Source of the DNA: Spirochaetota bacterium
GTDB lineage: Bacteria; Spirochaetota; Spirochaetia; B11-G9
Length of the DNA: 38,484 nucleotides
NCBI GenBank assembly: GCA_024280415.1
Contig: JAJRQE010000170.1
Span: 1-38,484 of the forward strand
Direction of reading: 5' to 3'
Shown: positions 1,119-30,437 of the stretch, in pieces
Layout of the letters: every line of letters begins with the position of its first letter
Numbering within the stretch: position 1 is the first letter of the stretch
Position numbers and translations under genes: made by a program
The notes under the pieces: generated by a model
The model's database searches: none
Seen by the model: only the letters and a program-made list of their open reading frames with translations
What the model was told of the DNA's origin: nothing

Positions 1119-1301
1119 ATGAAAGAAAAGCATGAATTGTATAATGTAAAAGTAAGTGTAATTGAAGTAAAAGAGTGCAGTGCCGGCTTGAAAGTCGGAG
1201 ATTTTTTTAGAATTAATGTCGAGAACGGATTTAAAATGAAAAGTTGTGATGACTGGTGTCCGGAAGCAGTTCATGTAATTCTTAATTGCCGACTTTTTTA
1301 A
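1119..1301 (+). CDS. Small TIGR04076-like protein, C-terminally truncated
   Basis: A 60-residue protein with a CAGGAG ribosome site (1105-1110). The pattern VKVSVIEVKECSAGLKVGD followed by CPEAVHVI resembles the TIGR04076 family of small proteins of unknown function (Cys-x-x-Gly-x-Lys-x-Gly-Asp, then CPEA-H). Members I recall run some 20-35 residues further, so this copy seems cut off just after the CPEAVH motif. Its last 20 bases overlap, tail to tail, the end of the convergent molybdenum hydroxylase gene, which suggests the truncation came from the event that joined the two genes. It follows the dehydrogenase by 25 bases and may be co-transcribed. Family assignment is from memory of the motif; it could be a non-functional remnant. 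Confidence 0.5.
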   Translation: MKEKHELYNVKVSVIEVKECSAGLKVGDFFRINVENGFKMKSCDDWCPEAVHVILNCRLF

Positions 1302-4053
1302 TCAATTTCTGATCCACAGGCAAATTGAATATCCTTACTCCTGTTGCATCAAAAATAGCATTTGTAATTGCCGGTGCTGTTGCCAGGGAAGGTGCTTCTG
1401 CCAGTCCCTTTACTCCCAGAGGACCCCATGGATGAGGAACCTCAACGACAATATTTGTGATTTCCGGGGCTTCATTTGCTCTGGGTAATCCCAGGTCTCC
1501 CTGGTTTTTAGTCACTGGCAACCCTCTTTCTGATGAGTATTTTTCTGTGAGTGCATAACCTACACCCATTACTACACCCCCTTCCTGCTGCCCTTCAACA
1601 GCTCTCTTGTTAAGAACTTTTCCAAGATCACTTACAGTTACAATTTTTTTTGTTAAGACTTTTCCACTTTCATCATCAATCTCCACCAAGGCAAGCTGTA
1701 CTCCGTATGCATAAGCCCAGTGAGTTCTTCTGCTCTCAAAATTGGGGGAATCATAATCTTTCTGAGTAATTTTTTCCGGAAAAGTTGCAGTTTGTGGTGG
1801 AAAAGCTCTGAATTCAGCTCTTAAAGGTGCTCCGAGTTCAGAAAGTTTGATTCTCTTATCTGCAGTACTGTCAATTACAGAATCTCCCTTTAACTTAAGA
1901 GCCGCAGGATTTGAGTTCCCCAGTTTTTCTGCAGCAGCTGTTAAAATATCAGAGAGAAGTTTTCTCGCCGCTCCCAGGGTCGCATTTCCTGTCATAAAAG
2001 TCTGCATAGATGCTGTTGTTGCCGTAGTAAAAGGTGTTTTCCCTGTATCAGGAAGTTTAACAGAAATTTCATCGACAGGAATCCCCAGTACTTCCGATAC
2101 TAATTTAGCCTGACCAATTGCAGCTCCCTGTCCAAATTCATGATGTGTTACCATTAATTCACATCTCCCTTCAGTTGAAAGTTCCAGAATTGCTCCGGCG
2201 CTTTCGGGGAATCCATGACCAAACCCAATGTTTTTAACTCCACATGCAACACCTATTCCATATCTTTTTCCGCCGGAATTTGGTGGAAGAGTAAATTTTT
2301 CTCTTGCTTTTTTGGCTTCCAGTAAAGCTTCGACTATTCCAGGTATTCCTGGCTCGAGAATATGATCGGTAACCGTTGGAAGGCCTGGTTTTAGTGCATT
2401 TTTCAGTCTGATATCGATTGTATCCATCCGCAGCTTTTCTGCAGCCATATTTATGAGGGACTCTATCATGAAATTGGCCTGGTTTGCGCCGAATCCACGC
2501 ATTGCCCCTCCCATTACATTATTGGTATAAACAGCTTTTCCTTTTATTGATAATTCCGGTATATAGTATGGACCCACGGCAAAAGTCATCGCATTTTCTA
2601 TAATATCATGCCCAAGGGATGCATAGGCACCTGTATCTGTTTCTATATCAACAATGAGTGATTTAAACTTACCAGATTTGTCTACACCCAGAGATGCCTC
2701 AAACTGTATTGCGTGTTTTTTCTGTACAATACGGAGAGAGTCTTCCCTGTCCAGAGTTATTTTTACGGTTCTGTTGAATTTCAGGGCAGCCGCTGCAAGA
2801 ATATGCTGGAAGAGAACATCTTCCTTGCCTCCGAATGCGCCTCCTGTTGGAAGTTGTATAACCCTTACTTTATTCTCTTCCAGACCAAGGGCTCCTGCAA
2901 CTTGTCTGCGGTCATCAAAAGCTGCCTGGGTAGGATAGTAAATTTCAACACCGCCTTTCCCGTCAGGTACAGCATAACCCGATTCAACTTCCAGGTAACC
3001 ATGAGCTATTCTGGAGGTGGAAAAGTTGCCCTGTACAATAATATCTGCTGAGTTCAGAGCCTCTGCCGGTTTGCCTCTCTTAAGAAATCCATTGTATAGA
3101 ATATTATCCTTTTTATTTTTATGTAACAGGGGTGCATTTTTATCAAGTGCCTCTTTTACACTGAAAATCCCTGGAAGCTCTTTATACTCAGCACTCACAA
3201 GAGACAGTGCTTTTTCGGCTCCCTCCCTGCTGTCTGCAAATACTGCAACTATTGGATCTGAAACGGATCTTATTCGCTCGCCGATTCCTACGAGTCCAGG
3301 CTGATCCTGCTCAACCATTCCTATTTTATTGGATCCATTTATATCATCAGCCTTTAAGAACCCTGCAAAACCTTTTATTTCGGAAATATGCTGGGTGTTT
3401 ATACTGTTAAGAATACCACTGGGAATATCAGAGAATTTGATTTTTCCAAATATTGCTCCCTCAAGCTCAATATCATCAGCATATTTTAACTGTCCTGTAA
3501 CTTTTGGCAGGGCATCCTTTCTTCTTAAAGATGCATCATCAGGAAGTCCTGTCAGTTTACTCTTTTCACCTCTTAGTACTCTGCCTGCATCTTCTACAGC
3601 ATCTACAATTTTTTGATAACCTGTGCATCTGCAGATATTTTTGGAACCAATATAATCTCTTATTACCTGCCTGGAGGGGTTCTTATTTTCGTTGAGTAAT
3701 CCTGTGGATGTTATAATCATGCCGGGAGTACAGTATCCGCACTGAAGAGCTCCTGCATTCACAAAGGCTTCCTGAACAGGATGGAGCTCACCTGACTTTG
3801 ATACTAACCCTTCTATTGTTCTTATTTCTGAGTTCTCAAGGAGATTATGATCCATTTTAATTCTGCATGATTTAATAGGTTTTCCATTGAGCAGCACTGT
3901 ACAGGATCCGCAGTGACCCTCGCTGCATCCTTTTTTGACACCTGTAAGGTGTAATTCATATCTAAGAAAATTCTGTAAAGTCTTAACAGGATCACTTTTT
4001 GTATTGATCAGTGAACCATTGACAGTAAAATTAATACCCTTATCTGCATCCAT
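1282..4053 (-). CDS. Single-chain [2Fe-2S]/molybdopterin hydroxylase (xanthine dehydrogenase/aldehyde oxidoreductase family)
   Basis: 923 aa, combining what are often two subunits. Residues 1-155 are the iron-sulfur part: plant-type cluster ligands C43, C48, C51, C63, then the second cluster C105, C108, C141, C143. From about 170 onward is the molybdopterin domain with the GGAFGGKED loop, the MRGFGANQ segment and the active-site Glu at about 886 in GVKGLAEAP. The order matches Desulfovibrio-type aldehyde oxidoreductase (Mop), which has no FAD subunit; no FAD subunit is seen here either. Such enzymes hydroxylate purines, other N-heterocycles or aldehydes in the cytoplasm; the substrate cannot be read from the sequence. 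The ATG at 4053 has a good CAGGGAG site. It is separated from the upstream RibD-like genes by a minus-strand terminator at 4121-4142, so it probably has its own promoter. Confidence 0.9.
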   Translation of the reverse strand: MDADKGINFTVNGSLINTKSDPVKTLQNFLRYELHLTGVKKGCSEGHCGSCTVLLNGKPIKSCRIKMDHNLLENSEIRTIEGLVSKSGELHPVQEAFVNAGALQCGYCTPGMIITSTGLLNENKNPSRQVIRDYIGSKNICRCTGYQKIVDAVEDAGRVLRGEKSKLTGLPDDASLRRKDALPKVTGQLKYADDIELEGAIFGKIKFSDIPSGILNSINTQHISEIKGFAGFLKADDINGSNKIGMVEQDQPGLVGIGERIRSVSDPIVAVFADSREGAEKALSLVSAEYKELPGIFSVKEALDKNAPLLHKNKKDNILYNGFLKRGKPAEALNSADIIVQGNFSTSRIAHGYLEVESGYAVPDGKGGVEIYYPTQAAFDDRRQVAGALGLEENKVRVIQLPTGGAFGGKEDVLFQHILAAAALKFNRTVKITLDREDSLRIVQKKHAIQFEASLGVDKSGKFKSLIVDIETDTGAYASLGHDIIENAMTFAVGPYYIPELSIKGKAVYTNNVMGGAMRGFGANQANFMIESLINMAAEKLRMDTIDIRLKNALKPGLPTVTDHILEPGIPGIVEALLEAKKAREKFTLPPNSGGKRYGIGVACGVKNIGFGHGFPESAGAILELSTEGRCELMVTHHEFGQGAAIGQAKLVSEVLGIPVDEISVKLPDTGKTPFTTATTASMQTFMTGNATLGAARKLLSDILTAAAEKLGNSNPAALKLKGDSVIDSTADKRIKLSELGAPLRAEFRAFPPQTATFPEKITQKDYDSPNFESRRTHWAYAYGVQLALVEIDDESGKVLTKKIVTVSDLGKVLNKRAVEGQQEGGVVMGVGYALTEKYSSERGLPVTKNQGDLGLPRANEAPEITNIVVEVPHPWGPLGVKGLAEAPSLATAPAITNAIFDATGVRIFNLPVDQKLIKKVGN

Positions 4054-5275: not shown

Positions 5276-6397
5276 TTACTGCTCCCCTCCGAAAGATTTG
5301 ATTTTTCTTGTATCCAGAACCACAACAGCTGCTTCATCGGGCTCATCTGAAATTATTTCTGCAACAGGAAAACTCTTCGGTATTTTACCTGTCGGGGTGT
5401 CGAAAAAATCAATAAAGCGTTCCTGGAAATTGTTCAGAACCAATTTTTTAATTCTGCTCTCAATGTCAGGATTATTTTCTACTACTTCCCTGAGAGACGG
5501 TTTCCTGGCAAATGTAAAATTGAACTGATCGATTATTCCTGCCTGGCAGAAGGCTTTCAGCACCTTTTTCCCTCCATCGTGGTTGGCAAGTATAATATTG
5601 TATTCTTTAAACAAAATACCCGGAAGTTTCGGCAGATCCAGCTTATCCGGATTATCCCTATGAGAAATGGTAATTAATATTTTGTCTATTCTGTCTCCTA
5701 GATTATATTCTTCAGCTCGTTCTTTTATCTTTTCAGCTCCTATTTGACTGGTAACTATATAGGCTTCAACAGGAGAACCATCAGGAAGCTTTTCATGGAA
5801 AACAGAAGCAGATAAAAGATCCGGATCTGTTCTTTTACCACTCTGGGTAACAACAATCTGGGCAGGATATTCTCTGTTCGAAGCATAACCCAGTTCCTGC
5901 ATAAGTTTTCTCTGTTCTTTGAAACGTTTCATCATATTTGGATCTGCAGCTTTTAAATGGGGCCACTCTGCACAGAATTGGGGCAGCCACATATAACCGG
6001 GACTGCCGTCTTTTCCAGGAACACCGTCATTAATAACTGTACTGCTTCCAACGATTACCGCATCAGTAATGGCATACTGCATCGCAAGACGGTAGCCGTC
6101 CATAACATTGCTGTTTGCAATAATTCCGCCTCCGCTAAGTCCGTCAATGTTGAAAATCCAGTGTTCAACATCGTAAATTGATAATGAACCATCTTTTCTG
6201 ACATATGGTTCTGACCATATGCTATCAGCGGGTCTTAAAATAAACATACCTATAATAGCTGTTTTCTTTGTTTTCAGAGGATCTGTTATTATTGGAAAAT
6301 TACCATCATGATGAAATTTCTTCATCCCTTCTGTAAAAGGTATTTTTACCTTAATTCGGTTTTCATCATGGAATATTCCGGAATGTTTCAGCTTCAT
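5276..6397 (-). CDS. RibD C-terminal domain (dihydrofolate reductase-like) protein, 373 aa
   Basis: A longer, diverged paralogue of the gene that follows it. The TDAVIVGSSTVINDG block matches the nucleotide-binding region of PF01872 (the paralogue has CDAVLMGDSTIAKEP). Near the C-terminus, ILANHDGGKKVLKAF-type and AGIIDQFNFTFARKPSL segments match the family's 'EGG...L...gLvDEl' region, though the usual ESG motif is altered. An insertion between these blocks (WLPQFCAEWPHLKAADPNMM and beyond) lengthens it. I set the start at 6397 because AGGAGG lies just before that ATG; the frame reaches an ATG at 6424 that has no ribosome site. It heads the RibD-like pair and is divergent from the importer operon across a 128-base region containing the HutC-type operator, so both directions could share control. 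Confidence 0.7.
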   Translation of the reverse strand: MKLKHSGIFHDENRIKVKIPFTEGMKKFHHDGNFPIITDPLKTKKTAIIGMFILRPADSIWSEPYVRKDGSLSIYDVEHWIFNIDGLSGGGIIANSNVMDGYRLAMQYAITDAVIVGSSTVINDGVPGKDGSPGYMWLPQFCAEWPHLKAADPNMMKRFKEQRKLMQELGYASNREYPAQIVVTQSGKRTDPDLLSASVFHEKLPDGSPVEAYIVTSQIGAEKIKERAEEYNLGDRIDKILITISHRDNPDKLDLPKLPGILFKEYNIILANHDGGKKVLKAFCQAGIIDQFNFTFARKPSLREVVENNPDIESRIKKLVLNNFQERFIDFFDTPTGKIPKSFPVAEIISDEPDEAAVVVLDTRKIKSFGGEQ

Positions 6398-6440
6398 ACC
6401 AACCTCCTGTAAAATAATAGTCAAAAAATGAATATAATTC

Positions 6441-15040: not shown

Positions 15041-15529
15041 ATGGATAATGAAATTTTATTTGTGGAATTAAATATAAATGGTGAGCTTAAATATCTGCAT
15101 ATAAATAAAAAATGGACCCTCCTTCATGTGTTGAGAGAGGTATTGAATATGACAGGTACAAAGTATGGGTGCGGAACCAATGATTGTGGTGCCTGTAGAG
15201 TACTTATTAATGGAGAAGCAAAGAATTCCTGTGTTATTCCTGCTAAAAACCTGGAGGGGAAAGAGATTATAACTATTGAGGGACTTCAGGATAATGGTAG
15301 TCTGAATACTATCCAGAAATCCTTTGTAGATGCAGGAGCTATTCAATGCGGATTTTGTACCCCAGGAATGATTATCTCAACAAGCGCATTATTGAAAAAA
15401 AATCCCAGACCTTCAGAAAATGAGATAAGAGAGGGTTTAAAAGATAATTTATGCAGGTGTACAGGATATGTAAAAATAGTTGAAGCAGTAAAGCTTTCAT
15501 CAGTCAGATTAGAGGGGAGCATAGGATGA
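15041..15529 (+). CDS. [2Fe-2S] subunit of a molybdenum hydroxylase (XdhC/CoxS/NdhS-type)
   Basis: 162-residue iron-sulfur subunit. The ferredoxin-type cluster ligands are C44, C49, C52, C64 and the second, helical cluster ligands are C103, C106, C138, C140. It carries electrons from the molybdopterin site of the partner subunit. I set the start at the ATG at 15041, which has AGGTGG seven bases upstream; a TTG six bases earlier is in frame. Its stop overlaps the start of the large subunit in an ATGA, so the two are made together. No medium FAD subunit is nearby, so the final electron acceptor is probably not NAD through the usual flavin subunit. Confidence 0.92.
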   Translation: MDNEILFVELNINGELKYLHINKKWTLLHVLREVLNMTGTKYGCGTNDCGACRVLINGEAKNSCVIPAKNLEGKEIITIEGLQDNGSLNTIQKSFVDAGAIQCGFCTPGMIISTSALLKKNPRPSENEIREGLKDNLCRCTGYVKIVEAVKLSSVRLEGSIG

Positions 15530-17916
15530 GTGATCGTTATACAGATATCAAGAATCTGGAAAAGTCTTTCAGGGATAAAGGCTTAAAATATGTAGGTAAA
15601 AGAATTTTTAATCGTGAATCGGAAATGAAAGCTGCAGGTGAGACCATCTATATTGATGATATGAGAATAAAAGGGATGATATATGGTAAAATTCTTTTTT
15701 CTCCCCATGCCCATGCAAAAATTATAAAAATTGATACTAAAAAGGCTGAAGCCCTGCCAGGAGTTCATGCTGTAATTCACTACTTTAACAGTCCTCATGT
15801 TGTTTATAATGGAGCAGCCAGATTTTATATGGATTCAAGTCCAATGGATATGCCAAGAACAGAATATATTTTTGATGAAACAGTGAAGTATGTAGGTGAC
15901 AGAGTAGCTGCTGTTTCTGCAGATACACAGAAAATTGCAGAACAGGCAGTTAAGCTTATCGAAGTAGAGTATCAGGATTTACCCTCATCAATAGATTTTA
16001 ATAAAGCGGTTGTGAATGGTTCTCCTCAGGCAAACCCAAATGGTAAAGATGGTTCTAATATATGTGGTGAATGGCTTGCATACGGGAATGCAACCGAGGA
16101 GGAAACAAAAGAAAGTATTGAATCTGCAGAGTTCACTTTTAAGGATACTTTTAGAACTCCCAGAGTTCATCATGGCTATATGGAGCCAGTATGTCATATA
16201 GCCGATTATACCAGAGAAGGAAAGTTAACGATCTGGTCATCCTGTCAGAATGTATTCTGTTTCAGGGATGTAATTGCCCGGGCTCTGGAGTTGTCTCAAA
16301 GTAAAGTCAGAGTTATAAAAACAGTTAGTGGAGGTGCTTTTGGTGGTAAGCTGGAGGTTATGCATGAAGTAGTTGCTGGTTTATTATCAATGCGTTCCCG
16401 CAGACCTGTTAAATTACTCCTAAATAGAAAGGAGACTTTTATCTCCACTAGAAGCAGACATGAGGCAATTCTTACTGTCTCAACCGGATTAAACAGAGAT
16501 GGTAAAATTCTTGCTCAGCATGTAGAGTCGCGACTGAATACCGGTGCATATGCGGGAGCGGGTCCAAATACTGTGGGTGCACAGTCAGAGAAAATGTTTG
16601 TACTGTACAATGGTGATAAAATGTTTTACCGGGGAGCTTCTTTTTATTCAAATACACCTCCTGCAGGAGCCATGCGGGGCTATGGATCTCCCCAGATACA
16701 TGCAGCCCGGGAAACACATATGGATCGGATTGCAGTGGCATTGGGTATTGACCCTGTAGAACTGAGAAAGCTAAATGTAGTACTTCCCTACAAAAATAAC
16801 AGCCTCGGTAACAATATGCATAATGCACTTATTAAAGAATGTATTGAAACAGGGGAAAAAGAGTTCAATTGGGCAAAGAGGCGAAAAAATGCCGGGGAGA
16901 ATCAGTCCGGGAGATATAGAAGGGGAGTTGGTATGGATATTGCCGTCCATGGAAATGGATGGTTTCCTGTTTACCAGGATCTGAGTACAGTGACCATAAA
17001 GATGAACAATGATGGTACAGCAGTACTTCTTACAGGTACTCATGACCTTGGTACAGGGTCAAGAACAATTTTTAGTCAGATTGCAGGAGAGGTTCTCGAT
17101 ATGTCTCCCGATTTAATTGAAATAATTGAAGCTGATACAGATATAACACCTCTTGATCTGGGAGCACAGGCTTCCCGAACAACTTACATTGGTGGTAATG
17201 CTACCATTCTTGCAGCAGCAAATCTTCGGACACAGTTATTGAAAGAGGCTTCAGCGATTCTAAAGCTTGATGATTCGGAACTTATTATCAAAGATAGAAT
17301 TATAAGTTCACGGAACGATCCACAGATTTCCTGTTCGTATACAGAAATAGTAGCTTCTGCCCAGGCTGGTAAATATGGAGTTCAAAGAGATTTAACTGCT
17401 ACAGAGTCATTTGAATCTGTAAATTCTGTTGATAGTTATGTAGCAGTATTTACAGAGCTTGAAGTAGATATAAATACCGGTAAAGTAAGAGTTATTGAAG
17501 TTCTTCCTGTTCATAATTCAGGTAAGGTTATAAATCCCCTATTATTCGAGGGGCAGGTAAATGGTGGTGTCCATATGGGTCTTGGATATGCACTGTCCGA
17601 GGAGATGCTTATTGATTCTGAAACAGGTCGTATCAAAAACCCTTCATTTGGAAAATACAAGATGTTCAGAGCGGATCAAATGCCTAAAATCACAATTAGA
17701 ACAGTAGAAAGTCCTGAGGAGGCTGGTCCCTTCGGTGCTAAAAGTATTGGTGAATGTGCAACTGATGGAGTTGCCGGAGCTATAGTAAATGCTGTAAGTC
17801 ATGCATTGGGGAATGTGAAGCTGGACAGGATCCCCTTAACTGAGGAATATCTCAAGTCTGTTATAATCGCGAAAGTGGCGGCAGATATAGTAATAGAGGA
17901 GAACGAATGCGAGTGA
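15526..17916 (+). CDS. Molybdopterin-binding subunit of a molybdenum hydroxylase (xanthine dehydrogenase family)
   Basis: 796-residue catalytic subunit. A short N-terminal aldehyde-oxidase domain (about 30-150) is followed by the Mo-cofactor domain with GGAFGGK (about 270), MRGYGSPQ (about 385) and the active-site Glu at about 743 in GAKSIGE. The residues that set substrate type in xanthine dehydrogenase cannot be assigned by eye, so purine, other N-heterocycle or aldehyde are all possible. With the small subunit and the single-chain enzyme at 1282-4053, this gives two distinct hydroxylases in one island. It is the last gene of the plus-strand set and converges on the HutC-type regulator, with a hairpin between them. 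Confidence 0.92.
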   Translation: MSDRYTDIKNLEKSFRDKGLKYVGKRIFNRESEMKAAGETIYIDDMRIKGMIYGKILFSPHAHAKIIKIDTKKAEALPGVHAVIHYFNSPHVVYNGAARFYMDSSPMDMPRTEYIFDETVKYVGDRVAAVSADTQKIAEQAVKLIEVEYQDLPSSIDFNKAVVNGSPQANPNGKDGSNICGEWLAYGNATEEETKESIESAEFTFKDTFRTPRVHHGYMEPVCHIADYTREGKLTIWSSCQNVFCFRDVIARALELSQSKVRVIKTVSGGAFGGKLEVMHEVVAGLLSMRSRRPVKLLLNRKETFISTRSRHEAILTVSTGLNRDGKILAQHVESRLNTGAYAGAGPNTVGAQSEKMFVLYNGDKMFYRGASFYSNTPPAGAMRGYGSPQIHAARETHMDRIAVALGIDPVELRKLNVVLPYKNNSLGNNMHNALIKECIETGEKEFNWAKRRKNAGENQSGRYRRGVGMDIAVHGNGWFPVYQDLSTVTIKMNNDGTAVLLTGTHDLGTGSRTIFSQIAGEVLDMSPDLIEIIEADTDITPLDLGAQASRTTYIGGNATILAAANLRTQLLKEASAILKLDDSELIIKDRIISSRNDPQISCSYTEIVASAQAGKYGVQRDLTATESFESVNSVDSYVAVFTELEVDINTGKVRVIEVLPVHNSGKVINPLLFEGQVNGGVHMGLGYALSEEMLIDSETGRIKNPSFGKYKMFRADQMPKITIRTVESPEEAGPFGAKSIGECATDGVAGAIVNAVSHALGNVKLDRIPLTEEYLKSVIIAKVAADIVIEENECE

Positions 17917-21421: not shown

Positions 21422-23422
21422 CTACTTAAATTTACTCTTCATATCTTTAAAGAAATCTACTGCTTCTTCCCCTTTTACCTCTGTTTCCGGGGTATGAAAC
21501 TCGATAAGTTCTTTTGGGATTTCCTCTAGAAAGGGAGAAGGGCCGGTATCAACTATCTCATAACGGACTTTTCTTGTTTTGCAGCTTGTCATAAAAAGTT
21601 TTTGTTTTGCCCTGGTTATTGCTACATAGAAGAGCCGTCGTTCTTCTTCAATATTTTCCGGATTTTCCTCGATAGCTCTGGCATGAGGTATAATATTATT
21701 CTCAACCCCTGCAAGAAAAACATATTCAAATTCCAGTCCCTTCGAGGCATGTATTGTCATAAGGTTCACCTGACCATTATCACCATCATCATCATCATCT
21801 CTTGTCAGAAGGGTAATTCTGTTGAGGTAGGTTCCCAGTGCCTTTCCTTTGTTATCAGGATTTCGTTCCCATTTCTCAAAAAGTTCCATAAAAATACCAA
21901 TATTTTTGTACTTCCACTTTGCCAGTTTCTCATTCTTCTGATGTTCGACAACCAGGTATCCCCAGTAATTTATTTTTTCGATTAAATTCCGGATAACTTT
22001 AGATTTTTTTTCCTCTTCATCCTTTAAGAGTTCCTTGTATTCTTCAATCATATCTATAAATTCCTGCAGACTGCTTTGAATATTGTCTGACAGAGGTGAA
22101 TCACCATCCCACCTGAGTTCGGCTGCTCCTGCATATAAACTGCACTCTTTCTTTTGGGCAATTTCCCTTATTTTCAACAAGGTTGCTTTTCCAAGACCTC
22201 TGCGGGGTGTATTCAAAATTCGAAGGAAATTGACGTCATCATCTGGATTATCCAGAACCCGTAGATATGCAACAATGTCTTTTATCTCTTTCCTTTGGAA
22301 AAAACTCTGTCCCCCGGAGACTTTGTAGGGAATATTTTCTGCTAAAAATGAGTTTTCAATTAGGGTACTCAGATTATTTGTTCTAATAAGTACGCCGAAA
22401 TCATGATATTTAAGTTTCTCTCTTAAATGGAAACTCTTTATCATTTCTGATATAAAATCAGCCTCTTTCATCTCATTTTCAGGATAGTAGATCTCTATGG
22501 ATTTTCCATGTCCTATTCCTGTCCAGAGTTCTTTTTCCTTTCTGTTAGTATTGTTGGATATTAAACTGTTTGCGGCTGCCAGGATATTTTCTGTCGACCT
22601 GTAGTTCTGTTCCAGTTTTATCTCGGTAAGTTCCGGAAAATCTGTTTCAAAATTTACTATATTCTGATAGTTTGCACCTCTCCATGAATAGATAGACTGG
22701 TCATCATCCCCAACAACACAGATATTTCTATTTTTTTGGGCAAGCTCTTTAATAAGACGGTACTGGGCTATACTTGTATCCTGAAATTCATCCACCATAA
22801 TGTATTGATACTTTAACTGATAGGCTTTAAGAATATCAGAAAATTCTGTAAAAAGTTTTACCGGAAGAATAATCAGATCATCGAAATCTACAGAATTATG
22901 GTTAAAGAGGTATTCCTGGTATTCTATATACAGGGGCTTAAAACTGTTATTGGTATCTGTCCATTTTATCCTGCCCGTTTTAATTGATGAGAAAAGATTT
23001 GCTACTTCATAAATATCCAGAACATCCGGAGAGATATTTAGTTCCCTCGCGGCCTCTTTTATTGCAGAGATTTTATCAGTTTGATCATAGATGCTGAAAT
23101 TATCATTGTAACCCAACTGGGATATGCTCTCTTTGAGAATTTTAACTCCAAAGGCATGAAAGGTTGAAACTGTCAGGTTTGTGAGTTTTTTACTTGTCAG
23201 AGTTTTAACACGTTCTTCCATCTCTCTTGCAGCTTTGTTTGTAAATGTCAAAGCAAGAATATTAGATTGATGGATCCCTTTTTCAAGCATGTGGGCTATT
23301 CGGAAGGTGATCATTCTGGTTTTACCGGATCCGGCTCCTGCAATTATAAGCAGGGGGCCGTTTAGTTGTTCCGCAGCCAGATATTGCTTGTCGTTGAGTT
23401 CTTTTTTTAGGTTAATTGCCAA
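21422..23422 (-). CDS. pcrA: UvrD/PcrA/Rep-type 3'-5' DNA helicase
   Basis: 666-residue superfamily 1A helicase. The motifs appear in order: Walker A AGAGSGKT (28-35), motif Ia ALTFTNKAAREM, Walker B VDEFQDT, motif III GDDDQSIYSWRGA, motif IV QNYRST, motif V TIHASKGLEFEYVF and motif VI EERRLFYVAITRAK. It unwinds DNA during repair and replication. It starts at a TTG with CAGGA upstream. A run of Asp (DDDDDGD) precedes motif V. It is the last gene of a four-gene minus-strand run, 15 bases after the COG2426 gene. The choice between PcrA, UvrD and Rep is by general similarity only; at 666 residues it is slightly short for UvrD. Confidence 0.88.
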   Translation of the reverse strand: MAINLKKELNDKQYLAAEQLNGPLLIIAGAGSGKTRMITFRIAHMLEKGIHQSNILALTFTNKAAREMEERVKTLTSKKLTNLTVSTFHAFGVKILKESISQLGYNDNFSIYDQTDKISAIKEAARELNISPDVLDIYEVANLFSSIKTGRIKWTDTNNSFKPLYIEYQEYLFNHNSVDFDDLIILPVKLFTEFSDILKAYQLKYQYIMVDEFQDTSIAQYRLIKELAQKNRNICVVGDDDQSIYSWRGANYQNIVNFETDFPELTEIKLEQNYRSTENILAAANSLISNNTNRKEKELWTGIGHGKSIEIYYPENEMKEADFISEMIKSFHLREKLKYHDFGVLIRTNNLSTLIENSFLAENIPYKVSGGQSFFQRKEIKDIVAYLRVLDNPDDDVNFLRILNTPRRGLGKATLLKIREIAQKKECSLYAGAAELRWDGDSPLSDNIQSSLQEFIDMIEEYKELLKDEEEKKSKVIRNLIEKINYWGYLVVEHQKNEKLAKWKYKNIGIFMELFEKWERNPDNKGKALGTYLNRITLLTRDDDDDGDNGQVNLMTIHASKGLEFEYVFLAGVENNIIPHARAIEENPENIEEERRLFYVAITRAKQKLFMTSCKTRKVRYEIVDTGPSPFLEEIPKELIEFHTPETEVKGEEAVDFFKDMKSKFK

Positions 23423-23437
23423 TATTAAAATCCTGAT

Positions 23438-23914
23438 TTAAAGGGCTATTTCTTTAGTAAAAAACGAAAAAGTTTCAATGCCGAAATATGTTATGGAAAG
23501 TACAATTGTTCCGGAAATAACTACTCCGATTAAAACACTTAAAAAGGTTTTTTTAGGATCCAGTCCAAGAATCCATGCTCCCAGTGTTCCTGTATATGCT
23601 CCTGTAATAGGAAGAGGGACTGCAACAAACAGTACTATCCCAAAGTATCCATATTTTTTTACCTTATTCTCAAGTTTATGTCTTGCTTTTTCAACAAATC
23701 TTTCAAAAAGAGTTTCGTACCAGATAAACTTAACAAGGAGTCGATGAAATGTTGAGAGGAAAATATAGACCAGAGGCCCTACAGTAGCATTTAGGGCTAC
23801 ACAGTAGATCCAGACAAAACCAGGGGATAATCCGTTTGTTAAAGCGTAGGGGATTGCTCCTCTAAGTTCTGAAATAGGAAGGAGAGCAAGAAAAGCTGTT
23901 ATTACATATACCAT
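23438..23914 (-). CDS. COG2426 / Sm_multidrug_ex family small membrane protein
   Basis: 158 residues with four or five hydrophobic segments. The N-terminal PISELRGAIPYAL motif and the central PLPITGAYTGTLGAWILGL motif mark PF06695, annotated as putative small multidrug export proteins although function is hardly tested. It lies between the DUF362 gene (5-base gap) and the helicase. AAGG is eight bases before the ATG. The assigned transport role should be read as family labelling only. Confidence 0.8.
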   Translation of the reverse strand: MVYVITAFLALLPISELRGAIPYALTNGLSPGFVWIYCVALNATVGPLVYIFLSTFHRLLVKFIWYETLFERFVEKARHKLENKVKKYGYFGIVLFVAVPLPITGAYTGTLGAWILGLDPKKTFLSVLIGVVISGTIVLSITYFGIETFSFFTKEIAL

Positions 23915-23919
23915 CTAAA

Positions 23920-25038
23920 TTACCTTATCTCTATTGCGTCAACCGGACAGACTTCATGACAGCAGTAGCACCTTATACATTTATTATAATCTACAGCAAC
24001 AAACTTTCCATTTGCTCCCTGTTCGAACCAGTTTGCGTTTGAAGCACATATTTTAATACATTCACCGCATTTTATGCATTTCTCTTCGATAAAATAGGGT
24101 TTCGGTTTCATTCGCTGCTGAATTTTTTCAAACATTCTAAAGTGAAACAGGTCAAAAATTATATTTTGAAAGGTTTTAGTCTTTATCAGTTTATAGTTTT
24201 CGATTTTAGCTTCTTTTAGAGAAAGACCTTCCAGAGAAATATCGGCAAAACTCTTTAGCCCCAGATCTCGTTTAAGTGCCAGTTTATTTGTTGGAATAAG
24301 GTTCGGATCATAGCCAATAATTGAAGATGCAATTACATCCACTGCTACTGCATTGCTTCCGGCTAAAATAATTTTTCCCGGTCTTGGATAACCATTTCCC
24401 GGGCCTGGTCCCTCCATGCCTATTACCCCATCCATTATTGAAAACGCAGGTTTCACTGCTTCAAGGAGATCGAGGATCATCTCTCCAAAATTATGGCGGT
24501 TAGGATAAGTTACATGGTAGGGTGAGTTACTTAGTCCAGGGATCAGTCCAAAAAGGTTCTTTACTGCACCTGTAAAGTACATAAGCTGATGAGTTTTTAA
24601 TTTTGGGAGGCTAATTATCATATCGACTTTATCTACAATTGCAGTTACTTTGAATTCCTTCTGCATTTTCCCTGTTTCGGAAGTTATTATTGTTTTTTCT
24701 GTAGTGAAATCTACCCATTTCGCTCCGGTTTCTTCTGTTACCTGTCTTATTCCACTTTTTTTACCGGAATATCCAGGTTTTTGAAACCCTGGAGAATCTC
24801 CAACATATATTTCAACAGCACCCATCTTTTTCATGTACTCAATTACCGAACGCACAAATTCTGGATGAGTTGATATTGCTTTTGCAGGATCAGAATCCTG
24901 GAGGATATTAGGTTTTAACAGAAGGTTTTTACCTTTTACGTCTATTCCTCCGGACAGTCTCATTACTTCTGCAATAGCCTTATCAAGTTCTTCTGATGCG
25001 TAGGTGTTGCATTTAACAAGTCCCACTTTTGCTTTCAC
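23920..25038 (-). CDS. DUF362 domain protein with C-terminal 2[4Fe-4S] ferredoxin domain
   Basis: 372 residues. The DUF362 domain (about 1-285) has recognisable LLKPNI, STHPEFVRSVIEYMKK and SLPKLKTHQLMYFTGAVKN segments. The ferredoxin domain at 315-372 has two complete CxxCxxCxxxC sets (C321/324/327/331 and C354/357/360/364), with an extra C359. Proteins of this kind are common in anaerobes, usually annotated as iron-sulfur proteins of unknown role. It starts at a GTG with GGGAG upstream, two bases after the stop of the mannosyltransferase-like gene, so those two are tightly coupled. Confidence 0.85.
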   Translation of the reverse strand: MKAKVGLVKCNTYASEELDKAIAEVMRLSGGIDVKGKNLLLKPNILQDSDPAKAISTHPEFVRSVIEYMKKMGAVEIYVGDSPGFQKPGYSGKKSGIRQVTEETGAKWVDFTTEKTIITSETGKMQKEFKVTAIVDKVDMIISLPKLKTHQLMYFTGAVKNLFGLIPGLSNSPYHVTYPNRHNFGEMILDLLEAVKPAFSIMDGVIGMEGPGPGNGYPRPGKIILAGSNAVAVDVIASSIIGYDPNLIPTNKLALKRDLGLKSFADISLEGLSLKEAKIENYKLIKTKTFQNIIFDLFHFRMFEKIQQRMKPKPYFIEEKCIKCGECIKICASNANWFEQGANGKFVAVDYNKCIRCYCCHEVCPVDAIEIR

Positions 25039-25040
25039 TT

Positions 25041-26147
25041 TTATTTCTCCCTGTTAACAAGTTCATCGAACAATTTATCATAGTCTTTAATTATTGTGTT
25101 CCAGCACAATTTGCTCATTCTATCTATTAATACATTTTGTTTAAAGGCTTTATCTCCTGTCAGGGTTCGTTTAAGTCTCTTTTCAAGATCATAATCATCA
25201 CTGAACAGACATTCAGAATGAAACTCCTTTGGAATAATCTCAGGGTAGGAGAGTCTGTTTGGAAGAAGTGGCCTGCAACCTGCCAGAGTTGCTTCTATAA
25301 CCGCTATTCCATAATTTTCCTGGTTTGAGGTGCTGATAACAATATTTCCCCTTTTTAAGAGATTAATATATTCATCATAGTTTTCAAGATAGCCGGTGTG
25401 TATAATCTCATCTCTTAAAATTTCTATTGCCTTTCGAAAAACAGGTGGGTATTTCTTGTATCTTTCTCCCAGAAGAGCCAGTTGGAATTTAATACCATCT
25501 TTTTTTAGATTAAAAAGAACATTAAAAAAATCTTCCGGGTTTTTATCATATTCCCAACGGTGGTTCCATATAATAACAGAATAAGGATTTACTCCATTAT
25601 TTTCGTCTGTTCTTTTCAGAGCGCTGCCATCAATTCCAGGATATAATACCAGAGATTTAAGTCTGATTCTGTTAATACTCCAGTTAGGTACACTATCCGG
25701 CATGTGTCCAATAAACAGTGGTAACTCCCTTAGAAATGTATTCATGTGAGTGTGGGAATTAAATACAACCCTTTTTGCACCAAGGGCATTTGTAAGATCT
25801 GTTAATCCGTAGTGATAATCAAGTTTTTCACCTTTATTCAATGGGTATGCAAGCTGATTTTCATGAAAGTAGAGAACAACAGGCGGACAGCTGCTTCCGA
25901 AGAATAATTTTAGATCAGAAATATTAATAAGATCGGTTGTAAATATCAGTTCATAGTCTTCAATATTTTTTACCTGCTCTGAAAAATAGAGTGCAGCTCC
26001 TTTCATCCTCCATTTCCAAAATCTGGCCGGCATGGTTAACAGATCAATTTTATATTTTGAATTCTTTACCAGTCCATCTGCAAAGGCTTTGTGGGAACCA
26101 CTGTAGAAGGATTCGAGAAATAATATCTTAAGGGGTTTCAAAAACAT
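25041..26147 (-). CDS. tRNA-queuosine mannosyltransferase-like glycosyltransferase (DUF3524, GTDC1/QTMAN homologue)
   Basis: About 368 residues. The N-terminal domain matches the distinctive DUF3524/GTDC1 blocks: ILFLESFYSGSHKAFADGL, MPARFWKWRMKGAALYFSEQ, VLYFHENQLAYPL, a QYGY-like HYGL and VVFNSHTHMNTFL. The C-terminal half is a GT4 fold with a WNHRWEYDKNPEDF nucleotide-sugar region and ISTSNQENYGIAVIEA. In animals this family adds mannose to queuosine in the anticodon of tRNA-Asp. A bacterial copy suggests a glycosylated queuosine here, but other acceptors cannot be excluded. The start is uncertain: I prefer the ATG at 26147; an in-frame TTG lies at 26180 and neither has a clear ribosome site. 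It heads the four-gene minus-strand run. Confidence 0.82.
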   Translation of the reverse strand: MFLKPLKILFLESFYSGSHKAFADGLVKNSKYKIDLLTMPARFWKWRMKGAALYFSEQVKNIEDYELIFTTDLINISDLKLFFGSSCPPVVLYFHENQLAYPLNKGEKLDYHYGLTDLTNALGAKRVVFNSHTHMNTFLRELPLFIGHMPDSVPNWSINRIRLKSLVLYPGIDGSALKRTDENNGVNPYSVIIWNHRWEYDKNPEDFFNVLFNLKKDGIKFQLALLGERYKKYPPVFRKAIEILRDEIIHTGYLENYDEYINLLKRGNIVISTSNQENYGIAVIEATLAGCRPLLPNRLSYPEIIPKEFHSECLFSDDYDLEKRLKRTLTGDKAFKQNVLIDRMSKLCWNTIIKDYDKLFDELVNREK

Positions 26148-28697: not shown

Positions 28698-30437
28698 ATG
28701 GATCAGAATGAACTGAATCAAAAAATAAGAGAATATCTGGAATTTGAAGAACATCCGTACTTTAAAGATGATTTACAAAAGATAATTGATGAGCAGAATT
28801 CCGAAGAACTGAATGACAGATTTTATATGGATCTTGAGTTTGGAACAGGAGGTCTTAGGGGTGTAATCGGAGGAGGATACAATCGTATAAATCCATATAT
28901 TATTCGAAGGTCTACGACTGGTCTGGCAAATTATATTAAAAAAACTACAGAAAATGGTTCTGTTGCAATTGCATATGACTCCCGGAATTTTGCTTCCCTT
29001 TTTGCTGAGGAAGCAGCTCTTATTCTTTGTGCCCAGGGTATTAAAGTATATTTGTTCTCCTCTTTGAGACCCACTCCGGTTGTTTCCTATACTGTAAGAA
29101 AACTTGGCTGTACAGCCGGTATTGTTATTACTGCCTCGCATAATCCGGCAGAATACAACGGTTATAAGGTATTCTGGTCTGACGGTGGACAGGTAGTCCC
29201 TCCTCATGATGTATCAATAATCAATGAAGTGAGCAAAGTCAGAGGAAAACCACTTACCATGGATAAGGAACTTGCACTGAAGAAAGGACTCCTCCTGTTG
29301 ATTGACAGGGAAATTGATGACTCCTTTGTTGCTCTTGTAAAATCCTGTAGTTTCAGACCGGAGCTAATGAGAACCCAGGGGAAGAATCTGAAGATCGTTT
29401 ATACTCCCCTTCATGGCGCGGGTACCATTCTCGTTGAGAGAACACTTGGTGAAATGGGAATAAATGTTATTACTGTACCGGAACAAAGGGATCCGGATGG
29501 CAATTTCCCGACAGTGGAATTTCCCAATCCGGAAATAGAATCTGCTATGAAACTTGGACTTGAACTTGCCAGAAAGGAGAAGGCCGAGCTATTGATGGGA
29601 ACAGATCCTGATTCTGACCGTCTTGGTATTGCTGTCCCCGACGGTGATGATTATCTTCTTGTAACCGGGAACCAGTTAGGTGTTCTCCTGGCAGATTATA
29701 TTTTTTCCTCTTTAAAGGAAGCGGGAAGACTTGATGAAAAAAGTGCTTTTGTCAAAACAATAGTAACTACTGAGCTCCAGAAACTTGTTGCAGAATCCTA
29801 CGGAATTAAATCGTATGATGTTCTGACAGGATTTAAATATATAGCAGATAAAATTCATGGATTTGAGAAAACAGGTGAGAAGTATGTTTTCGGAGGGGAA
29901 GAAAGTTATGGTTATCTGGTAACTGATGAAATCCGTGATAAAGATGCCGTATCTGCTGCATTTTTAACTGCAGAATTAACACTTTATCTTAGGTCAAAAG
30001 GTAAGAGTGTGATAGATAGAATGAAAGAGATATGGGATAAACATGGATATTTTGAGGAATTACTGATTTCACGATATTTAAAAGGGGAAAGTGGAAGAAC
30101 TAAAATGGAAGAGATGATCTCTTCAATGCGGAATATGCCTCCTGCCCAGTTCGGGGGTATACCGGTTTCATATATGAAAGATTATAAGAGTGGTGAAACC
30201 TATAATGTATCAGACGGTACAAAAGAAACGAATATTGATCTTCCATCTTCCAATGTTCTTCAGTTTTTACTACAGGACGGGAGTATGGTGACAATACGAC
30301 CTTCGGGGACTGAACCTAAAATTAAGTTTTATGCTTCCTGTAAGGGGGAAGCGGGAGCTGATCTTTTATTGTCAAAAGAAGAAGTCAAAGAAAAATTAAA
30401 AAGAATAGAAGAGGATGTCGATGAATTCCTTGGATAA
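28698..30437 (+). CDS. pgcA: Phosphoglucomutase/phosphomannomutase, PgcA/PGM2 type
   Basis: 579 residues, the length of PgcA/PGM2-type alpha-D-phosphohexomutases. The phosphorylated Ser is S147 in TASHNP, the metal loop is DPDSDR, the sugar-binding loop is GGEESYG and the C-terminal phosphate loop is RPSGTEPKIK. It interconverts glucose (or mannose) 1- and 6-phosphate. CAGGGAG precedes the ATG. Its last 17 bases overlap the start of the diguanylate cyclase gene. PGM and PMM activity cannot be distinguished from sequence by eye. Confidence 0.9.
   Translation: MDQNELNQKIREYLEFEEHPYFKDDLQKIIDEQNSEELNDRFYMDLEFGTGGLRGVIGGGYNRINPYIIRRSTTGLANYIKKTTENGSVAIAYDSRNFASLFAEEAALILCAQGIKVYLFSSLRPTPVVSYTVRKLGCTAGIVITASHNPAEYNGYKVFWSDGGQVVPPHDVSIINEVSKVRGKPLTMDKELALKKGLLLLIDREIDDSFVALVKSCSFRPELMRTQGKNLKIVYTPLHGAGTILVERTLGEMGINVITVPEQRDPDGNFPTVEFPNPEIESAMKLGLELARKEKAELLMGTDPDSDRLGIAVPDGDDYLLVTGNQLGVLLADYIFSSLKEAGRLDEKSAFVKTIVTTELQKLVAESYGIKSYDVLTGFKYIADKIHGFEKTGEKYVFGGEESYGYLVTDEIRDKDAVSAAFLTAELTLYLRSKGKSVIDRMKEIWDKHGYFEELLISRYLKGESGRTKMEEMISSMRNMPPAQFGGIPVSYMKDYKSGETYNVSDGTKETNIDLPSSNVLQFLLQDGSMVTIRPSGTEPKIKFYASCKGEAGADLLLSKEEVKEKLKRIEEDVDEFLG

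Follow-up and report, generated by a model that had tools for sequence, protein, structure and literature searches.

A bacterial QTMAN-family glycosyltransferase predicted to act on queuosine in tRNA and its association with TGT in Chloroflexota

The window, a 38,484-nucleotide stretch of DNA from a Spirochaetota bacterium that was analysed here, carried on its minus strand (25041..26147) a gene for a 368-aa protein with an N-terminal QTMAN_N domain and a C-terminal GT4 domain. The product is likely to be a QTMAN-family enzyme, of the retaining GT-B/GT4 type, that glycosylates Q34 of tRNA, homology pointing to GDP-mannose as the donor and tRNA-Asp as the target. The gene, which was single-copy in the source genome (3.9 Mb assembly, 98% complete), started with ATG at 26147 and ended with a TAA stop codon at 25041. 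The three N-terminal blocks of DUF3524/GTDC1 named in the original prediction (FYSGSHK, FWKWRMKGAALYF, and YFHENQLAYP) were all found in the protein, and the claimed homology with QTMAN/GTDC1 proved firm: Pfam QTMAN_N (PF12038) matched residues 7–172 over the full length of the profile (positions 1–168 of 168) with 196 bits and an E value of 4e-58, the curated cut-off of Pfam being 25 bits. Glycos_transf_1 (PF00534) matched residues 189–310 with 41.8 bits (cut-off 26.4), the catalytic EX7E motif was intact (QENYGIAVIE), and the C-terminal GT4 domain contained a WNHRWE-DK motif. No NCBIfam model matched the protein at its own cut-off. Judged by its sequence, the gene is a member of a known, already named Pfam family, whose occurrence in bacteria follows from Pfam searches.

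Relatives of the protein were encoded in at least 565 stretches of the genome collection, and the 80 relatives listed came from Desulfobacterales, Spirochaetales, Planctomycetota, Bacteroidota, Chloroflexota, KSB1, and others; the genome records with a QTMAN-family gene included those of Desulfonema magnum, Desulfatibacillum alkenivorans, and Desulfosarcina alkanivorans. There was no relative in the phage, plasmid, and viral-contig collections, and the family was likewise absent from 14 well-known control genomes. In the open-access literature, with most subscription papers outside the scope of the search, there was no report of bacterial manQ or of an active bacterial QTMAN. Alignments of 33 members and of 110 members from many phyla showed that the GSH, W-[KR]-W-R-M, HENQxxYP, FNS, WNxRWE-x-DK, and E-x7-E elements were kept. 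The first position of the EX7E motif was glutamate in 101 and aspartate in 9 of the 110 aligned members, and the second was glutamate in 109 of them.

The AlphaFold model of the protein had a GT-B fold (pLDDT 91.1, pTM 0.89), and its best Foldseek matches in the PDB were retaining GT-B enzymes of the GT4 type, with E values down to 6e-14. These matches included PimA with GDP-mannose (PDB 2gej), at 12% identity in the structural alignment. A sequence search of the PDB retrieved no QTMAN chain and general GT4 domains only. Since the nearest proteins beyond the family, by sequence and by fold, are GT4 enzymes of polysaccharide, lipid, or small-molecule metabolism, the protein might itself be an ordinary enzyme of this kind, its likeness to QTMAN reflecting ancestry and not a shared function. 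We regard this explanation as improbable. The QTMAN-specific N-terminal domain was as strongly conserved as the catalytic domain, which argues against it, and the gene neighbourhood and the distribution of TGT, both described below, also bear on it.

The QTMAN-family gene was the first of a same-strand run on the minus strand, followed by a gene for a DUF362 protein with 4Fe-4S ferredoxin domains (23920..25038; Pfam PF04015, 189 bits), a gene for a small Sm_multidrug_ex (PF06695) membrane protein (23438..23914), and a gene for a UvrD/PcrA-like helicase (21422..23422), which ended the run. Coupling to a DUF362 iron-sulfur protein had been claimed from the start, and it could be read directly from the DNA: the DUF362 gene began with GTG at 25038, 2 bp downstream of the QTMAN-family gene, and in a genome of the same genus the two genes overlapped by GTGA. 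The gap and the overlap together indicated that the DUF362 gene is probably translationally coupled to the QTMAN-family gene, and the Sm_multidrug_ex gene is probably part of the same operon. In the survey, however, DUF362 was adjacent only in the window and in the same-genus genome, and in a third locus (L034) it lay no more than five genes away, so that the coupling appeared lineage-specific and confined to close relatives; this local link says little about function. The Sm_multidrug_ex and helicase genes recurred in 4 and 5 survey loci, respectively.

On the divergent side, a phospho-sugar mutase of the PGM/PMM superfamily was encoded at 28698..30437 on the plus strand (Pfam PGM_PMM I–IV), and such a mutase lay near the QTMAN-family gene in 11 distinct loci of spirochaetes, counting the one in the window. 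This recurrence would suit an ordinary GT4 enzyme, although no polysaccharide cluster was prominent among the recurrent neighbours of the QTMAN-family gene. The mutase might be tied to sugar supply, and shared descent accounts for its recurrence as well as function does. Gene neighbourhood was also considered and rejected as evidence for a link with Q, because no tgt, queA, or queH gene lay near the QTMAN-family gene in 97 survey loci (1.43 Mb), a few of which were duplicates; this absence, too, would be in keeping with an ordinary GT4 enzyme. Elsewhere in the window, two large subunits of xanthine dehydrogenase-type molybdenum hydroxylases were encoded (1282–4053, minus strand, and 15526–17916, plus strand), in a stretch that also held genes for an extracellular solute-binding protein, an FGGY kinase, an MFS transporter, and GntR regulators. 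An ORF of 382 aa at 5276–6424 (minus strand) directly adjoined a RibD_C protein and had no Pfam match at E 0.001.

Apart from its neighbourhood, the source genome encoded TGT (G000:C128:4746-5837, 485 bits), QueA (C132:9880-10890, 426 bits), and QueH (C281:388-894, 189 bits). A search of the genome for tgt, queA, and queG had been proposed as a check of the original prediction; the first two were found, and QueG had no match in the source genome, QueH standing in its place. The absence of a tgt/queuosine pathway, which would have spoken against mannosyl-queuosine or a relative of it, was thus not observed. The TGT of this genome had the motif GGLSVGE, with the valine gate of enzymes that insert preQ1. 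A ManC-like mannose-1-phosphate guanylyltransferase was encoded at C124:305-1369; it spanned the first 350 of the 467 positions of the bifunctional model, being without the isomerase half, and its 293 bits fell below that model's cut-off of 373 bits. From these four genes, the source cell should hold Q-tRNA and probably also GDP-mannose. In the predicted pathway, TGT, QueA, and QueH would first build Q at position 34 of the tRNA, to which the QTMAN-family enzyme would then add a sugar. The animal member of the family acts on Q-tRNA, and the prediction of mannose and tRNA-Asp derives from it (PMC12518689). By homology to the animal enzyme, the donor would be GDP-mannose, the sugar would be placed on the cyclopentenediol of Q, at its allylic hydroxyl, and tRNA-Asp would be the likeliest target.

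In the Spirochaetia, the QTMAN family was patchy, being present in 68 of 297 genomes, 65 of which also had QueA (p = 1). This overlap was discarded as support because QueA was near-universal in the class (281/297) and the co-occurrence therefore carried no weight; the three carriers without QueA were genomes of 76–90% completeness. Among 27 spirochaete carriers that were checked, TGT was found in 26. A QueG-like protein above 100 bits was present in 22 of the 27 (12 of them above the curated cut-off) and QueH in 4, with no overlap at this score level, so that only G281, a 76% complete genome, had neither. These carriers should therefore complete Q and not stop at epoxyqueuosine. A match to ManC was found in 15 of 18 spirochaete carriers, one of the 3 without it being a single-contig assembly, which suggested that the donor may differ among carriers.

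The last result bears on a second explanation, in which the enzyme does glycosylate Q-tRNA and uses another sugar, another tRNA, or epoxyqueuosine, so that the product is not mannosyl-Q-tRNA-Asp. Besides the carriers lacking a ManC match, it is favoured by the range of donors among GT4 enzymes sharing the GT-B fold (UDP-glucose, UDP-GlcNAc, and GDP-mannose) and by positions in the conserved blocks that vary by subfamily, with WNHRWE replaced by WN[AS]RWE in the Chloroflexota. We nevertheless judge this explanation unlikely: the source genome carries the ManC-like gene, and the distribution of QueG-like proteins and QueH makes Q, not epoxyqueuosine, the expected end product in all the checked spirochaete carriers except the one incomplete genome.

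The glycosylation of Q-tRNA predicted for the family was also addressed in the Chloroflexota, in which QueA was patchy, being present in 145 of 221 genomes, and the QTMAN family was present in 21. QueA occurred in 7 of the 21 carriers, compared with 138 of 200 non-carriers, a negative association (p = 0.003) that first looked like a refutation of the link with Q, an impression that did not last once TGT had been checked in the carriers. All 21 had a bacterial TGT scoring above 440 bits. Three of the QueA-minus carriers (G418, G434, and G466) have a contig near whole genome size, which indicated that the loss of QueA there was not an assembly gap. Among QueA-minus Chloroflexota, TGT was found in 14 of 14 carriers and in 7 of 17 non-carriers, the latter taken in list order from 62 genomes lacking both QueA and the QTMAN family (p = 0.0005); this value overstates the evidence because only two or three independent Chloroflexota lineages are represented, the TGTs of the 14 carriers falling into two groups (12 and 2) and their glycosyltransferases into two or three. 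The QTMAN family thus tracked TGT and not queuosine synthesis in the Chloroflexota. Occurrence of the family with TGT, where Q is built from preQ1 or, as predicted, salvaged, fits a modifier of Q-tRNA, and an enzyme of polysaccharide metabolism would have no reason to follow TGT in genomes without QueA. This association in a second phylum, predicted queuine salvagers included, supports Q-tRNA as the acceptor, and together with the intact catalytic site it argues for a Q-tRNA glycosyltransferase.

The predicted salvage in QueA-minus carriers was suggested by the gate region of their TGTs. All 14 had IGGSLG, and the QueA-plus carriers had GGL[AS]VG. When the sequences were read by eye without gaps, the glycine of GGSLG replaced the gate valine, at a place where the automatic alignment was gapped. 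Queuine-salvaging TGTs have the signature GG[LS][AS]G, and valine has been named as the barrier to queuine in TGTs of the preQ1 type (PMC10723273). GGSLG matches this published signature except at the fourth residue, and the QueA-minus Chloroflexota carriers are accordingly predicted to insert whole queuine, like animals. An association of the QTMAN family with TGT in bacteria predicted to salvage queuine may be new. Qng1 was considered as a general salvage route and rejected, as just two of the 14 carriers without QueA (G388 and G428) had it. It supports a salvage route in these two genomes; in G428, Qng1 (PF10343) lay directly upstream of the GGSLG-type TGT (L131:7492-9530, corresponding to G428:C19:39491-41529).

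This adjacency, and the predicted queuine salvagers among the carriers, would also fit a third explanation, in which the substrate is free queuine or queuosine, glycosylated for storage, export, or scavenging, and not tRNA. To this we give very little credence, considering how few of the QueA-minus carriers had Qng1 and that the animal member of the family uses Q-tRNA (PMC12518689). Glycosylation of Q within tRNA is the reading that we retain.

Other TGT variants were seen in the same collection. Four Chloroflexota genomes that lacked both QueA and the QTMAN family (G331, G349, G358, and G367) had TGTs with GGLAGDE in a GGLNIGGLAGDE-like context (loci L173, L175, L176, and L177), with glycine at the gate, and are predicted to be queuine users without a QTMAN glycosyltransferase. 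A second, divergent TGT, scoring about 270–316 bits to TIGR00430, was present in 9 of 21 Chloroflexota carriers versus 0 of 23 non-carriers, counts that are uncorrected for relatedness. It was found in G418 (C1:3804627-3805703; L138), G466 (L139), G386 (L140), G436 (L143), and G444 (L142), in all five of which, on examination, GGWPLD replaced GGLAVGE, and also in G352, G394, G498, and G506; the spirochaete G147 has a second TGT of similar score. Related proteins of about 271 aa were encoded near the divergent TGT in L138, L139, L140, and L143, in three of them as the next gene, and the L143 copy (L143:8204-9019) is an FmrO-type ribosomal RNA methyltransferase (PF07091, 180 bits).

Animal tRNA is known to contain the modified nucleosides manQ and galQ, whose enzymes were identified only recently. 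The present results suggest that the decoration of queuosine with sugars extends beyond animals. With somewhat less confidence than for the spirochaete enzyme, we lean towards the broader view that glycosylated Q is made by many bacteria in several phyla, comprising organisms that make Q and queuine-salvaging Chloroflexota with a glycine-gate TGT, the latter being a bacterial counterpart of the animal scheme of salvage plus QTMAN. If this is true, a bacterial enzyme would offer a simple genetic system for the effect of a sugar on Q34 in decoding and might reveal the origin of the animal gene. The association with TGT makes the function of the bacterial family testable, directly in the carriers named above.

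Of the closest known systems, the animal tRNA-queuosine alpha-mannosyltransferase QTMAN (GTDC1) has in common with the spirochaete protein a whole QTMAN_N domain followed by GT4, a catalytic EX7E motif, Q within reach of the cell, and the predicted reaction on Q34 of tRNA; it differs in that the spirochaete is predicted to make Q de novo with TGT, QueA, and QueH, whereas animals salvage queuine. PimA (2gej) shares the GT-B fold, the retaining GT4 catalytic motif, and possibly the GDP-mannose donor, but it has a lipid acceptor and is without the QTMAN_N domain. A known bacterial decorator of Q on tRNA-Asp is the glutamyl-queuosine tRNA(Asp) synthetase GluQ-RS (YadB), which is unrelated to the QTMAN-family protein and adds glutamate instead of a sugar.
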